Positions 3,485-28,368 of a stretch of 28,368 bases of DNA are shown piece by piece. Under the pieces are notes generated by a model that saw nothing but the letters and a program-made list of their open reading frames with translations, was not told the origin of the DNA and did no database searches. The stretch spans positions 1-28,368 of IMG/VR virus record IMGVR_UViG_3300021598_001024. The stretch is one strand, 5' to 3'. Each line of letters starts with the position of its first letter. The stretch's first letter is position 1. This stretch comes from a virus. The position numbers and the translations under genes are program-made.

Positions 3485-4138
3485 TTATTGCATTTCAATT
3501 GGTGCTATACCTTCCACTCCAGGCTGGGGGACATACGGGTTGTTGCCCACGCGCATCATCACCTCGTCCCATTCGTCGGCGGCAGGGATGTCGCCTTCCC
3601 AAGGCTCCCCTGCGTCCCCTTCGGGAGCGTAGATATAGATGAGTCTGTCCCACCAGTGGTAGCAGTTCTTGCCACCTTTCCATTCAAAAATATCGTAGGT
3701 GCTTTCGCCCTTTGCGGCGAACTCTCCGTTGATTCCGTCCGCGCTCATGTCGGCGATGTCCTCGTAGCGGTACTGCACGCCTTCCTCGGAAAGGGCCACC
3801 ATGTTCTGACAGAAATCCCTGCTCACTCCCGTTTTGCTGACGGCGGTGGAGTCAAACTGGCTGTAGGCATAGCGCAGAGCAAAGAAATATCCATTCGGAC
3901 TGATGACGTCGCCCCAGTCGCTGAACTCGGTGTGGTTGTCGTAGGACTCGAGCGTCGACGCGGAGTCGCTGAAAGACCGTCGGCTATTGATTCTGTGGTC
4001 GACCAAGGGTTCGGTCACTCGCTCGCGGCGGAACAGCCTCCATCCCGGAGGTGTCGGAGAGGCCTTGTCCGCGAGGAAATCTAACCACACTTCTGCTTGA
4101 CTATCTGAAATTCTCTCCGGTTGGAAACGACTGAAGTT
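3485..4138 (-). CDS. Portal C-terminal extension in -1 frame
   Basis: This 217-residue frame has no good independent start: a GTG at 4090 is the only candidate, and it overlaps the portal stop by 10 nt. Read back to a run of nine A on the minus strand (4137-4145), the frame is open and continues the portal without a stop, giving NFSRFQPERISDSQAEVWLDFL. Further on it contains SRDFCQNMV, YRYEDIADMS and STYDIFEWKGGKNCYHWW. I recall these motifs as parts of the C-terminal region of longer Bacteroidota portal proteins. A -1 shift would give a 587-aa portal. The alternatives are a separate protein started at GTG, or a homopolymer sequencing error that split one gene. Confidence 0.65.
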   Translation of the reverse strand, partial: NFSRFQPERISDSQAEVWLDFLADKASPTPPGWRLFRRERVTEPLVDHRINSRRSFSDSASTLESYDNHTEFSDWGDVISPNGYFFALRYAYSQFDSTAVSKTGVSRDFCQNMVALSEEGVQYRYEDIADMSADGINGEFAAKGESTYDIFEWKGGKNCYHWWDRLIYIYAPEGDAGEPWEGDIPAADEWDEVMMRVGNNPYVPQPGVEGIAPIEMQ

Positions 4139-5247
4139 TTTTTTTCCTCGTCCATAAAGGCGGCGGGGATGAGTTTCTTGAACTCCAAAGGCAGCGTGAT
4201 GTTCGCCGCAGAAAGTACGGGCCGGATGCCGTCGAGCAGGATTTCCTGGAAAGGCAGGATGACCGTCTTGAGCATCAACTCATAGGCATCCTTCATCTCG
4301 TCCGCGTTACTTCCGAATCCCGTATCCCCTCGCAACCCAAAGAGAAGAGGCGAGGTCACCCGATGGCCCGACAGCACCTTGAGGCTGACCTCTTTGGAGA
4401 GGTAGTCGTACAGGCGATGAGGGTCAGGGATGTTGAACGGCTCGACCGTCGGAGCGTTCTCTTTGTCGTCGTTGTAGACGATAAGCATCCTTCCTGCGTT
4501 TTCCGCCCCGCTGAATTTTGCGTTGATGGCACGCTCCATTTCCACCCGCTCGTCGTCCGTAGGCTGCCCGTTATTGAACGAAATCATCATCGAAGGGAAC
4601 AGGCCGTTCTTGATGCTGGCGAGGTGGTAATCGGCGATGTTTTTGTCCAACTCGATATACTTCGTCGAACCCACGTAATCCGGGATGCCGTAGTAGAAAT
4701 CGATGGGGCTGTAAACCTTGATATGAATCAGGTGCGAAGCGGCCGTGCGGTCGTCCGTGCTGAAAGCAGGGATGGGCTGTGGCTCGCTGCGGCCTGCGTT
4801 GACCTCCGCCCAGTTCGTCGAGTAGTAGAACGTGGGAACTTGGTCTTGGTCGTCGGCCTTTCCGCAACGCACGTACGAAGCAGGGACGTGATTGGTCTCT
4901 GCGATGGTGCTGCGGTCTTGGCTCCAAATCACTTGGAAGTAGCAGTTGCCGTACAACTTGAGGTCGTGGGCGGCACGCTTCATACAGTCCTTTTTAAACA
5001 GCCCCTGCAACTTAAGCCACTGGTCGACGTGGGCATCCTTGTCGGGGGAGTCCAACCCTTCCCCGTAAATCATGTCCCCGATGCCTTTGATGATGGCCGA
5101 ATTGATGGCCGAACTAATGTACAAGTCCTCGAGGTAGTAGGGGTAGGCGTTGTCGTCGCCAAAGAACGCCCACTCCTTGTTGTTCGTGATGAACGCGCTG
5201 CCTAACTCCGGCCCGTAATTGAGGACGCTTAATGAAATCTTAGTCAT
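4081..5247 (-). CDS. Phage portal protein (frame-0 product)
   Basis: A 388-aa protein with portal-like features: an N-terminal part with ISSAINSAIIKGIGDMIYGEG, a central wing with LKLYGNCYFQVIW and a long stretch SPIDFYYGIPDYVGSTKYIELDKNI, then a stem-helix region (LSGHRVTSPLLFGLRG, MLKTVILPFQEILLDGI). The portal forms the dodecameric ring at the packaging vertex and binds the terminase. The frame-0 product ends only 18 residues after an A9 run. At that run a phased A_AAA_AAA heptamer (4144-4138) could shift translation into the downstream frame. The start ATG overlaps the previous stop by 8 nt. Unusually, it lies after the capsid gene and far from the terminase. Confidence 0.8.
   Translation of the reverse strand: MTKISLSVLNYGPELGSAFITNNKEWAFFGDDNAYPYYLEDLYISSAINSAIIKGIGDMIYGEGLDSPDKDAHVDQWLKLQGLFKKDCMKRAAHDLKLYGNCYFQVIWSQDRSTIAETNHVPASYVRCGKADDQDQVPTFYYSTNWAEVNAGRSEPQPIPAFSTDDRTAASHLIHIKVYSPIDFYYGIPDYVGSTKYIELDKNIADYHLASIKNGLFPSMMISFNNGQPTDDERVEMERAINAKFSGAENAGRMLIVYNDDKENAPTVEPFNIPDPHRLYDYLSKEVSLKVLSGHRVTSPLLFGLRGDTGFGSNADEMKDAYELMLKTVILPFQEILLDGIRPVLSAANITLPLEFKKLIPAAFMDEEKKTSVVSNRREFQIVKQKCG
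4137..4145 (-). other. Candidate -1 ribosomal slippery site in portal gene
   Basis: Minus strand reads GAG GAA AAA AAA ACT in the portal frame. The heptamer A AAA AAA (4144-4138) is in the canonical X XXY YYZ phase, after portal codon 370. Slipping back one base gives AAC and enters the open frame that ends at 3485. I see no clear downstream hairpin, so a sequencing indel or strain-specific frameshift mutation remains possible. Confidence 0.5.
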
Positions 5248-5654: not shown

Positions 5655-6209
5655 TTATACAGCCGCAACCACCGCAATGCCATCAATGGCACTGAATGGG
5701 TTGGCTGCTGTTCCGGCTGCGCCATAGTAGCACATCTGACGTTCACGGCCCGTGAACTCCAGCGTGATACCTTTCATATCATTCATCGCAGTTCCTGAAG
5801 CAAAGGAACCGCTGGTCACATCCATGCCGTTACGCGCACCCAACAGATAGAGTTTGTCATCGTTGTCGAGTACCCAAATGTTTGGACGGCCATAGGTGAG
5901 GTTCTGTACCTCTTCGATGTCCGTTGCATCGGGATGCTGCAAAACGATAGTCAACTTTTGGCTGTAGTAGTACGTGCCGTTGTTGATGTCCGTAGAGATG
6001 CTGATGTCAAAATTTGACAACTCCGGCCGCAGTTGATACTCGTAGACGGACAAGTCCGACCCCGAGGTCACAATCGTGATGGTGTTGCCCGTGGCGACAA
6101 ATCCCGTTTGAGCGGGAATGTCCACGTAGTTTTGAATGTACACCTTACGGATGCCGCCTAACTGATTCTTACAATCAATTGAGCGGCCCGCTGTAATGTT
6201 ACAAGGCAT
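5655..6209 (-). CDS. Major tail tube protein (probable)
   Basis: A 184-aa protein starting MPCNITAGRSIDCKNQLGGIRKVYI. The dCK..GGI.KVYI opening, the middle block FDISISTDINNGTYYYSQKLTIVL, and the later blocks PNIWVLDNDDKLYLLGARNGMDVTSG and GITLEFTGRERQ form a beta-sandwich pattern that I recall for tail tube proteins of Bacteroidota phages. Placement right after the major capsid gene and before a strong terminator fits a second highly expressed virion protein. The tube subunits would stack around the tape measure protein encoded at 10742-12811. Alternative: a head decoration protein. Confidence 0.65.
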   Translation of the reverse strand: MPCNITAGRSIDCKNQLGGIRKVYIQNYVDIPAQTGFVATGNTITIVTSGSDLSVYEYQLRPELSNFDISISTDINNGTYYYSQKLTIVLQHPDATDIEEVQNLTYGRPNIWVLDNDDKLYLLGARNGMDVTSGSFASGTAMNDMKGITLEFTGRERQMCYYGAAGTAANPFSAIDGIAVVAAV

Positions 6210-8795: not shown

Positions 8796-9713
8796 TTACT
8801 TGCTTTGGGAGAGTTGTTGGTAACGCTTCTCGAAGTAGCGTTTCCAAAGATTCACCTTGTCTACGGGTGCGGCCATCTTCTCCTCGGGTTCCGCTTCGAT
8901 GACCTCGGACACCTTTCCGTCGTAGTCCACCAACACGCCATCAAAGACCTCGATGGGAACCCCAGCCTCGGTGGTGTAGTTTCCGTTGGCAAGGGGAACG
9001 GGCATGCCCTCGCTGTCAAGGGTGAAGACCGAAACTCCGGGTTCCAACTTCTCCGCTTCCGTTCCGATGACTTTGCCATCAGACAACTTCGCCTCGGCGT
9101 AGAGTTTTCGCTGACGCATGACCTTCATCAACTTGGACATCAGGCTTTCGCGTTGCGCCTTGAGGATTTTGTCTGCAAAGTATCCCTCGATGCTGAAGCC
9201 TCGCAACTCCCCTGATTTCACCTTGCCCCACATCTCCTCGTTGGCACAATGCACGCGAACCATCCACGTCCCTTCAGGAACGGAGAGTCCGTAGTGTTTT
9301 GCCTTGTCGAGTTCGGGATTGACCACAAGCCAGGATTCCACCACCGAAACTCCGTCTACGGGAATCTGATGCTCGAAGGTGTGGTTGTTGGCGCGGTTCT
9401 CTTTCAGGAAAAGTTCAGCGCATTGGCGCACGGTCTCCTTGCTGAAGAAGACGTCGTACTCTTCGTCGGAGCCTTCATCCAAGCGGGGGATGTGCTTGTC
9501 GGGGATGAGGGCGGGGCCGATGAGTGTCTGCTTCTCTTCGTCGATGGCTGCCAACTGCGTGAGTTGGCTCTTGCCCTGCTTGGAGAAGTAGATGAAGTTG
9601 CGCTCGATGGCCGGGTATTTTACAAGCGAGATGGCTTCGACCCCGATGGCTTGTTCCTCGGGGTCAATGAGCAGTTCTATGAGTTTGCGCTCTGCCACCT
9701 GATTTTTTGTCAA
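8796..9713 (-). CDS. Prohead protease / XkdF-like head maturation protein
   Basis: A 305-aa protein. Its start codon appears to be TTG at 9713, overlapping the upstream stop as TTGA; a GTG at 9698 is the alternative. The middle region VVESWLVVNPELDKAKHYGLSVPEGTWMVRVH, followed by GKVKSGELRGFSIEGYF, matches the conserved core of XkdF-type prohead serine proteases, with His from the NHTFEHQIPVDG segment and Ser in RGFSIEGY as catalytic candidates. The enzyme would trim scaffold and other head proteins during maturation. The C-terminal part (about residues 195-290) is a separate acidic region with GTEAEKLEPGVSVFTLDSEG. It lies 1-2 kb upstream of scaffold and capsid genes, as expected. Confidence 0.8.
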   Translation of the reverse strand: MTKNQVAERKLIELLIDPEEQAIGVEAISLVKYPAIERNFIYFSKQGKSQLTQLAAIDEEKQTLIGPALIPDKHIPRLDEGSDEEYDVFFSKETVRQCAELFLKENRANNHTFEHQIPVDGVSVVESWLVVNPELDKAKHYGLSVPEGTWMVRVHCANEEMWGKVKSGELRGFSIEGYFADKILKAQRESLMSKLMKVMRQRKLYAEAKLSDGKVIGTEAEKLEPGVSVFTLDSEGMPVPLANGNYTTEAGVPIEVFDGVLVDYDGKVSEVIEAEPEEKMAAPVDKVNLWKRYFEKRYQQLSQSK

Positions 9714-17720: not shown

Positions 17721-18171
17721 CGCACAAATTCAGCGGGTTCGGCACGTTGATGTCGACCTCCACTCCCCATCCCGTCAGCATGTTGTTAAACCTTGCGGTG
17801 AACGGGGTGAGGTTCAGCGGGAATCCAATGACCCATTTGCCAGGAACGAACTGCCCCGAGGTGCTGGCCGCGAGGTTGAACTGCGCCACGATGTCGCGCA
17901 TGATGAGGTGGGTTTCCGAATACACCTGAATCAAATCGACCCCCTGCTGCTCCTCGATGACGAGGTCGGCCACCACAAACTCGTAGGTAAACGTCTCCGA
18001 GTTTTCGTTCGTGGTCACCCGAGTACACTGCGCGTAGAACAGCGGGTACATGTCGATGGTGATTTTGTCGATGTCCAACTCGTCGATGGCCGTGGTGTAG
18101 AACGCTCGGATTTGGTTGTGGTTTGCCGCGAGGTTCCGGAGGATGGTGTCGATGTCAGATAGCGTTACCAT
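17707..18171 (-). CDS. Tail terminator-like protein
   Basis: A 154-aa protein starting MVTLSDIDTILRNLAANHNQ. The pattern N-terminal helix, then IDMYPLFYAQC, YEFVVADLVIEEQQ, ETHLIMRDIVAQF and a C-terminal beta region WGVEVDINV is the general layout of tail terminator / minor tail proteins that cap the tube. It directly follows the tail chaperone and precedes the gp10-like protein, the usual order for tail completion genes. No catalytic motif. Confidence 0.55.
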   Translation of the reverse strand: MVTLSDIDTILRNLAANHNQIRAFYTTAIDELDIDKITIDMYPLFYAQCTRVTTNENSETFTYEFVVADLVIEEQQGVDLIQVYSETHLIMRDIVAQFNLAASTSGQFVPGKWVIGFPLNLTPFTARFNNMLTGWGVEVDINVPNPLNLCDALY

Positions 18172-18385
18172 TGATTTTGTTCGTGTTAGCGTTCAGGTCG
18201 TTTTCGTACGCAAGGTAGGTAAGCACCTCCTCCACCCGCAGGTTCGTCACCGCCTCAAACCGAAGAATGTCGCCCTGAGCCAGCCCGTGAATAACTTGAT
18301 ACCAACCCCACTTCGACCCCATCTTGGACTGCTCGCCTGCAAAGAGGACTCCGTAACGCGACCAAATACCCTCCCGGTATCGTAA
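18155..18385 (-). CDS. Tail assembly chaperone, T-like domain reached by -1 frameshift
   Basis: A 76-residue frame following the T9 slippery run. It contains KWGWYQVIHGLAQGDILRFE and VEEVLTYLAYEND. I recall this WGWY...LAxGDIxxF...VT...LTYLxYE signature as a small conserved protein of Bacteroidota phages located beside the frame-0 protein. An in-frame ATG at 18424 exists inside the upstream gene, but the residues before the slip site (MSDERSPRRDG) look like antisense of meaning rather than protein. The best reading is a -1 fusion of 171 frame-0 residues plus 76, 247 aa in all, analogous to lambda gpGT. Confidence 0.7.
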   Translation of the reverse strand, partial: LRYREGIWSRYGVLFAGEQSKMGSKWGWYQVIHGLAQGDILRFEAVTNLRVEEVLTYLAYENDLNANTNKINGNAI

Positions 18386-18897
18386 AAAAAAACCATCGCG
18401 CCGAGGGCTACGTTCATCGGACACTCAAGCATCTTGTCCCTTTGGCCGGGTGAGGGCTTGTAGGGTTGAATCTCGTACAGCGGTCCCATCGATGAAACCA
18501 CGGGGCGGTACATCACGGACAGCACGTCCGGCAAACTCTCCCAAACATCTCCCTTGCAGTACTCTTCCAAGTCGACAAACTCGCCGAGGGACAACTCGCT
18601 CCAGTCGGGGATGAATCCGTACTCCACGTTCCCGAGAAAGAATCTCGGCACGAGAGGGAACTCCTCCGTTTTGGGTGGCTCCATCAACTTGACCATGATG
18701 CGTGCAATCCTGGCCACGTCCGCAAAGGCGATGCGCTGAACCATTGGCTTGGGCAATCCGCACAGGATTTCGATGCCCAAACGGACAGCGTCCATCCCCT
18801 CCTTGGGTGGGTCGTTTGCCTTGGCCAACTTGATGTAGGTTCCGACGGTGACGTCGGCCATCGTCTCCGGCACTTGGATTCGTTTACGAGTAGACAT
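18247..18897 (-). CDS. Tail assembly chaperone, G-like frame-0 product
   Basis: A 216-aa protein starting MSTRKRIQVPETMADVTVGT. It contains VEYGFIPDWSELSLGEFVDLEE, VLSVMYRPVV and CPMNVALGAMVFFYD, a set I recall in a chaperone-like tail protein of Bacteroidota phages. After the slippery run at codons 169-171 the frame-0 tail still ends in SGVGIKLFTGWLRATFFGLR, resembling the normal end of the family, so the short product is probably real as well. It overlaps the terminase stop by 14 nt. Together with the -1 product it would bind tape measure and tube proteins during tail assembly. Confidence 0.7.
   Translation of the reverse strand: MSTRKRIQVPETMADVTVGTYIKLAKANDPPKEGMDAVRLGIEILCGLPKPMVQRIAFADVARIARIMVKLMEPPKTEEFPLVPRFFLGNVEYGFIPDWSELSLGEFVDLEEYCKGDVWESLPDVLSVMYRPVVSSMGPLYEIQPYKPSPGQRDKMLECPMNVALGAMVFFYDTGRVFGRVTESSLQASSPRWGRSGVGIKLFTGWLRATFFGLRR
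18366..18392 (-). other. Candidate programmed -1 frameshift signal in tail chaperone
   Basis: Minus strand reads ATG GTT TTT TTT TAC: nine T at 18392-18384, with heptamer T TTT TTT (18391-18385) in correct X XXY YYZ phase. Slipping gives TTA and enters the open frame ending at 18155. Four bases further on, an inverted repeat ATACC/GGTAT (18380-18376 and 18370-18366, 5-nt loop) could form a small stimulatory hairpin. Confidence 0.7.
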
Positions 18898-28202: not shown

Positions 28203-28333
28203 TTCCCTTGGCCGCGATATGGTTTGAAGTAATTCTTGCTGCTCTTCAGTTGCGATTGTTTCGTTTTCGCGTGTACACCCGGCCGGGATACTTCCCGCTC
28301 AATCCGCTGTACGATTTTTTGTGCTTTAGCCAT
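28199..28333 (-). CDS. Small basic conserved protein across the contig junction
   Basis: A 44-aa highly basic protein, starting MAKAQKIVQRIEREVSRPGV and ending SSKNYFKPYRGQGK. The ending resembles a small basic protein that I recall from Bacteroidota phages near lysis genes (SKNYxKxYxGQG pattern). It overlaps the upstream stop by 8 nt and the next start by 4 nt (GTGA). In the circular genome it links the fibre region to the lysis block. Too short for usual gene cut-offs. Role unknown; nucleic-acid or ribosome binding is possible from charge alone. Confidence 0.7.
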   Translation of the reverse strand: MAKAQKIVQRIEREVSRPGVHAKTKQSQLKSSKNYFKPYRGQGK

Positions 28334-28368
28334 TGGGCACAAGTTCTGTGGGTACGTCCGGGGGAACT
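28278..28368. repeat. Terminal direct repeat, right copy (circular overlap)
   Basis: Exact duplicate of the first 91 bases. It contains the start of the small basic protein gene (ATG at 28333) and the last codons of the gene that ends at base 49 in the left copy (its stop is repeated at 28326-28328). Confidence 0.9.

Follow-up and report, generated by a model that had tools for sequence, protein, structure and literature searches.

The portal locus

The window, meaning the whole stretch of DNA analysed here, is IMG/VR virus record IMGVR_UViG_3300021598_001024, positions 1 to 28,368, and its portal region lies on the minus strand. An exact 91-bp direct repeat occupies the two ends (1–91 and 28278–28368), which makes it probable that the record covers the complete genome, assembled as a circle. 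Between 4081 and 20391 the minus strand carries the terminase, tail and tape measure genes, followed by protease, scaffold-like, capsid-like and portal genes. Portal genes commonly adjoin the terminase gene, and against that the order in this genome is unusual. The host of the nearest cultured relative is a Nonlabens/Persicivirga flavobacterium. The portal region contains the following features:

4081..5247, minus strand: portal gene in frame 0, an open reading frame for a short product of 388 aa, with matches to PF04860 and phrog_33693
4137..4145, minus strand: candidate A9 slippage run in the sequence, with A_AAA_AAA in phase; A9–A12 among relatives
3485..4144, minus strand: -1 frame extension for the portal C-terminal domain, identified by its open frame, phrog_33693 and dN/dS
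4081..4083, minus strand: frame-0 stop TAG, the end of the short product; in split relatives the stop lies 17–21 codons past the run
4088..4090, minus strand: GTG, no other candidate start codon lying close to the beginning of the -1 frame; GTA instead in relative L184
2920..3498, minus strand: DUF6712 gene, next after the portal; it overlaps with the last part of the long frame

A T9 run on the plus strand, exactly at 4137–4145, is the A9 run of the minus strand, which reads ATG GAC GAG GAA AAA AAA ACT TCA GTC across it. Frame 0 passes the run as GAG GAA AAA AAA ACT TCA and terminates at TAG (4083–4081) after 388 codons, and its product contains a complete portal core followed by a short tail that ends in KCG. 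The -1 frame continues from the run as KK-NFSRFQPERISDSQAEVWL and is open as far as 3485. Counted from the run it comprises 219 codons plus a stop, of which 217 residues lie beyond KK, giving a predicted fusion of 370 + 217 = 587 aa. The position and -1 phase of the run, the open -1 frame and the product lengths of 388 and 587 aa had been described in an earlier note on this DNA, and they were reproduced exactly when the frames were recomputed. A purine-rich stretch adjoins the A run.

Markov simulations of the window gave an expectation of 0.27–0.55 A/T runs of at least nine, against two observed, so the portal run alone is weak evidence. The case rests on the conservation of both the run and the frame relation among relatives.

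The -1 frame as a portal C-terminus

The portal core (the N part) matches PF04860 above the cut-off in a Pfam profile search (E = 2e-12) and phrog_33693 over profile positions 18–355 of 560 (E = 1.6e-63). The -1 part matches the same phrog_33693 profile farther along, at positions 436–509 of 560 (E = 1.1e-11). Each of the 42 C-part homologues matches this portal family, and one of them also weakly matches another family. The portal of the cultured Nonlabens phage P12024S, like phrog_33693, shares both the core and the C-terminal domain with the window, and the phage carries them in a single annotated gene, one unbroken 560-aa frame, unlike the split gene of the window. Judged by these profile and homologue matches, the -1 part is genuinely the C-terminus of a portal, which bears out the resemblance to the C-termini of longer portals described in the earlier note.

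The fold of a fused in-frame relative, L119, was compared using an AlphaFold model built from 21 sequences (pLDDT 60), which served solely for gross portal matching. Solved portals rank at the top, the best matches being the HFTV1, GTA, FCWL1 and 7-7-1 portals of about 366–401 aa, and by this length the short form is a whole portal core. Among related phages, at about 40% identity, some have short-only portals of about 370–401 aa with the next gene directly after, the start of which resembles the DUF6712 gene of the window. Other related phages have long-only portals of 577–663 aa in a single frame. Since short-only and long-only versions both occur, these relatives indicate that short and long portals are both viable. 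Relatives that do not carry the run have a single portal length, either long or short, so that making both is no universal requirement, which counts against programmed slippage.

Conservation of the run and of the frame relation

The A9 run, the frame-0 stop and the -1 open reading frame are common to 12 other contigs from 12 separate metagenomes (A9 split set L001–L008, L010, L012, L013 and L078/L082, with the gene cut by contig ends in L078/L082). A -1 split with A10 is found in L011, L091, L182, L183 and L184, with a portal core identity of 55–87%. A sister clade of 22 contigs (L106–L127 and L130) keeps an A11/A12 run yet is in frame, and L185, sister of the split L184, is in frame with A10. 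Across these 23 in-frame members the run, of A10–A12, is in the same place. Portals in frame with no run of at least nine are present in L103, L104, L131–L158, L015 and others. Of two scans of genome contigs, the first gave no relative and the second gave one, an in-frame Flavobacteriales relative.

In a tree of the N part the run-bearing members form four well-supported lineages with long branches between them. The window/L011 and L091/L182 lineages are split throughout, the L184/L185 lineage is mixed and the fourth is in frame. Some branches of this tree are long, so these lineages do not stand for a count of events. The split is always -1 and never +1 in every split lineage.

The earlier note had offered a programmed shift and an indel as the two explanations, and the relatives speak for the first. 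A sequencing or assembly error in the homopolymer, or a recent inactivating indel, would mean that the true gene has a single frame, in keeping with the error-prone nature of homopolymers and with the single-frame portals of more distant relatives. However, the exact A9 recurs in the 12 other metagenome assemblies, the -1 relation is kept with A10 in the five more distant contigs, and the -1 frame shows purifying selection at saturating synonymous divergence. Assembly error or a pseudogene is ruled out by these A9 and A10 split contigs together with dN/dS, and this explanation is left with a negligible probability.

It could also be proposed that the length of the run changes during DNA replication and that the long portal is toggled within a population by phase variation. 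Homopolymers are mutable, and the close pair L184/L185 is found in different states, but both members of this pair have A10 and differ in the bases beside the run rather than in its length. Moreover, the run is A9 in 12 of 12 close contigs, none of which is switched on, and the in-frame clade is in frame in 22 of 22 contigs. Phase variation is therefore a very improbable explanation.

In the alignment with related portals that the earlier note had envisaged, the junction peptide KKNFSRFQPERISDSQAEVWL aligns across the run with in-frame relatives, e.g., KKKIFSEQPIRITETQGSIWL, and KK-NFSRFQPERISDSQAEVWLDFLADK of the window aligns residue by residue with KKKIFSEQPIRITETQGSIWLNHLADK of an in-frame relative. 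The fusion is thus the form of the protein that is conserved.

This junction bears on a two-protein arrangement, in which the portal would be complete after 388 aa, with re-initiation at GTG 4090 producing a separate C-terminal domain. The GTG overlaps the frame-0 stop in the window, L005, L011, L091 and L182, as re-initiation would have it. It is the only start candidate there, and the lack of a convincing one described in the earlier note is borne out; L184 has GTA at this position, on which ground an independent start at GTG 4090 was rejected. A separate C protein starting at this GTG would not need the residues upstream of it. Protein-level conservation of the -1 stretch before the GTG, and its alignment with in-frame relatives across the run, speak against such a start. 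Re-initiation also leaves the A run of the in-frame relatives unexplained, and it is an improbable alternative.

Selection on the protein and on the run

For the pair L001/L005, dN/dS is 0.028 in the N part and 0.057 in the C part read in the -1 frame, while the same C-part DNA read in the two other frames gives values above 2. For L001/L011, the C part in the -1 frame has a dN/dS of 0.083, and for pairs more distant than this one dS is saturated. The -1 stretch upstream of the GTG, where the frames overlap, gives 0.27 from few sites. These values indicate strong purifying selection on the -1 part.

The run itself is also constrained. Among 18 distinct run-bearing members, the lysine columns of the run are encoded by AAA in 18 of 18, 17 of 17 and 13 of 13 cases, compared with AAA shares of 0.07–0.92 at 20 other lysine columns (315 AAA vs 270 AAG overall). 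The 18 sequences are related, and in the four lineages every member with a readable junction has the run, so this set was not picked for it. By this codon usage the run is conserved at the nucleotide level beyond the need of the protein.

A stop in the alternative frame follows the run at 17–21 codons in split members. In 14 of 15 in-frame members the distance is exactly 20 codons, and in L185 it is 23. The short form of split members ends near that 20-codon position. The spacing is partly set by a conserved W-L-N motif, which itself favours a stop, so that it is no more than suggestive.

A more distant in-frame relative, L187, has an A10 run (6179–6188, IKKKF) in the linker between the core and the C-domain, possibly an independent slippage site.

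Transcriptional slippage and ribosomal frameshifting

Taken together, the conserved run and frames make it highly probable that programmed slippage on the A run yields short and long portals. By default, most copies would be the 388-aa portal with its complete core. In a fraction of mRNAs the RNA polymerase would stutter on the A run, so that the -1 frame continues; alternatively, a fraction of ribosomes would slip by -1 on A_AAA_AAA. Either way, the slipped product would be the 587-aa portal with an additional C-terminal domain of about 200 aa. Both lengths are then expected to enter a mixed portal ring, supplying a few copies of the additional domain per procapsid, probably on the side of the capsid interior. 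As the in-frame members keep both the run and the alternative-frame stop, either default frame can, in principle, yield both lengths.

A sub-case that would give the same two products is canonical -1 programmed ribosomal frameshifting, acting on A_AAA_AAA in the absence of any transcriptional slippage. The heptamer A_AAA_AAA is among those known for programmed frameshifting (PMC3711429), it is in phase in all split members, and the split is exactly -1 in every split lineage. This phasing is, however, automatic for A runs of at least nine and so cannot separate ribosomal frameshifting from transcriptional slippage; the phase noted earlier was correct.

A second phased homopolymer lies in the tail-assembly-chaperone gene of this genome, as T9 in the minus-strand mRNA:

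18155–18897, minus strand: tail-assembly-chaperone region, a 216-aa open reading frame followed by a -1 open reading frame with KWGWYQVIHGLAQGDILRFEAVTNLRVEEVLTYLAYE; run at 18384–18392 on the plus strand

The T9 run is unchanged in all 17 relatives compared, the most distant of which have about 28% identity. The earlier note had singled out the two phased homopolymer shifts as a pair, and both are present, but this one looks like the ordinary G/GT frameshift of tail assembly chaperones. Such a classic -1 site of fixed length in the same genome lends support to ribosomal frameshifting. The portal run behaves unlike it, varying between 9 and 12 and being kept by in-frame members.

No stable RNA structure was found in pseudoknot-free folds of the 90 nt at and after the run in six split members (z from -0.3 to +0.9), which may also count against ribosomal frameshifting. 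Two in-frame members were folded as well, of which only L119 reached z = -1.8, which is not convincing. Since the run is at least nine long, varies from 9 to 12 and occurs with either default frame, and no stable downstream structure was found, transcriptional slippage is slightly favoured. Canonical ribosomal frameshifting keeps a substantial probability, if one short of even.

The C-terminal domain

The model of the C-domain is weak (pLDDT 63, pTM 0.66). The domain in the window belongs to no Pfam family, has no sequence match in the PDB and, with this model, no significant fold match there. In a fold search the only matches of the model are predicted phage proteins with XkdF-like or portal-like annotations. 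Neither Pfam nor Foldseek, the latter with the same model, gave a match to an Ig-like fold, and one of 21 C-domain homologues has a sub-threshold ig match (E = 0.077). With E allowed up to 1, PF04233 (MuF-like) was matched neither by the domain in the window nor by any of the 21 homologues. The C-domain was found on no other gene in the loci fetched.

By analogy with head proteins of other phages and from this model, the C-domain may be a minor component of the head interior that is required in low copy number, its dose being set by slippage.

The window also has an XkdF-type protease gene (8796–9713, PF14550), which does not contain the C-domain, although the fold of this domain is matched by XkdF-like proteins in other phages. 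A 33-base in-frame deletion in L010 (and L090, L101, L176) takes out some of NCYHWWDRLIY, a motif of the C-domain; it is in one contig and is either an assembly error or a real variant.

Comparison with known recoding systems

A close parallel to the portal run is found in the tssM1 and tssM3 genes of Citrobacter rodentium and Yersinia pseudotuberculosis, in which poly-A transcriptional slippage was experimentally shown to produce short and full-length forms (PMC4256274). In that system tssM1 is split with A11 and tssM3 is in frame with a poly-A run, and each yields products of two lengths (PMC4256274). The portals show the same pair of arrangements, as split and in-frame homologues both have the A run, and this precedent counts in favour of transcriptional slippage. 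However, tssM is a bacterial secretion gene studied by experiment, whereas the portal case is drawn from sequence and spans several deep lineages.

Virion proteins with recoded C-terminal extensions are known in T7/T3, Lactobacillus A2, Listeria PSA/A118/A500 and SPP1 gp17.1* (PMC5009743, PMC6316719), and relatives vary between -1, +1 and in-frame decoding (PMC5009743). As proposed for the portal, some copies of a virion protein there carry a C-terminal domain that the others lack, although these are multi-copy coat or tail-tube subunits, and the extensions are often Ig-like. In lambda, gpG/gpGT are likewise short and long products of -1 slippage, at a site similar to the T9 of the window genome, but they are non-virion chaperones, and T9 is fixed while the portal run ranges from A9 to A12.

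A MuF-like head domain is fused to the portal or protease in Microbacterium phages (PMC7302621). This is reminiscent of the C-domain, the fold of which likewise occurs in portal-like and XkdF-protease-like proteins, although with no PF04233 match the C-domain is only a candidate for kinship.

A search of the open-access literature, with subscription papers outside its scope, gave no report of portal frameshifting or slippage. This suggests that, while coat and tail proteins have known examples of recoded extensions, the portal case is new within that literature.

Implications

Tentatively, and with a probability somewhat below even, the whole can be read as a portal ring of two chain lengths made by poly-A transcriptional slippage, in which the tract is under selection, either frame may be the default, and an internal head domain would be placed at the portal vertex in just a few copies.

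In such portal genes the C-terminal half would escape annotation pipelines. The pairs of split and in-frame relatives that share the A run form a natural experiment for comparing transcriptional slippage with ribosomal frameshifting. Portals are usually treated as 12 identical chains in a ring. If the proposal is true, the ring would be a mixed one of controlled composition, making portal stoichiometry directly testable, and recoded virion extensions would reach the portal, beyond coat and tail proteins.
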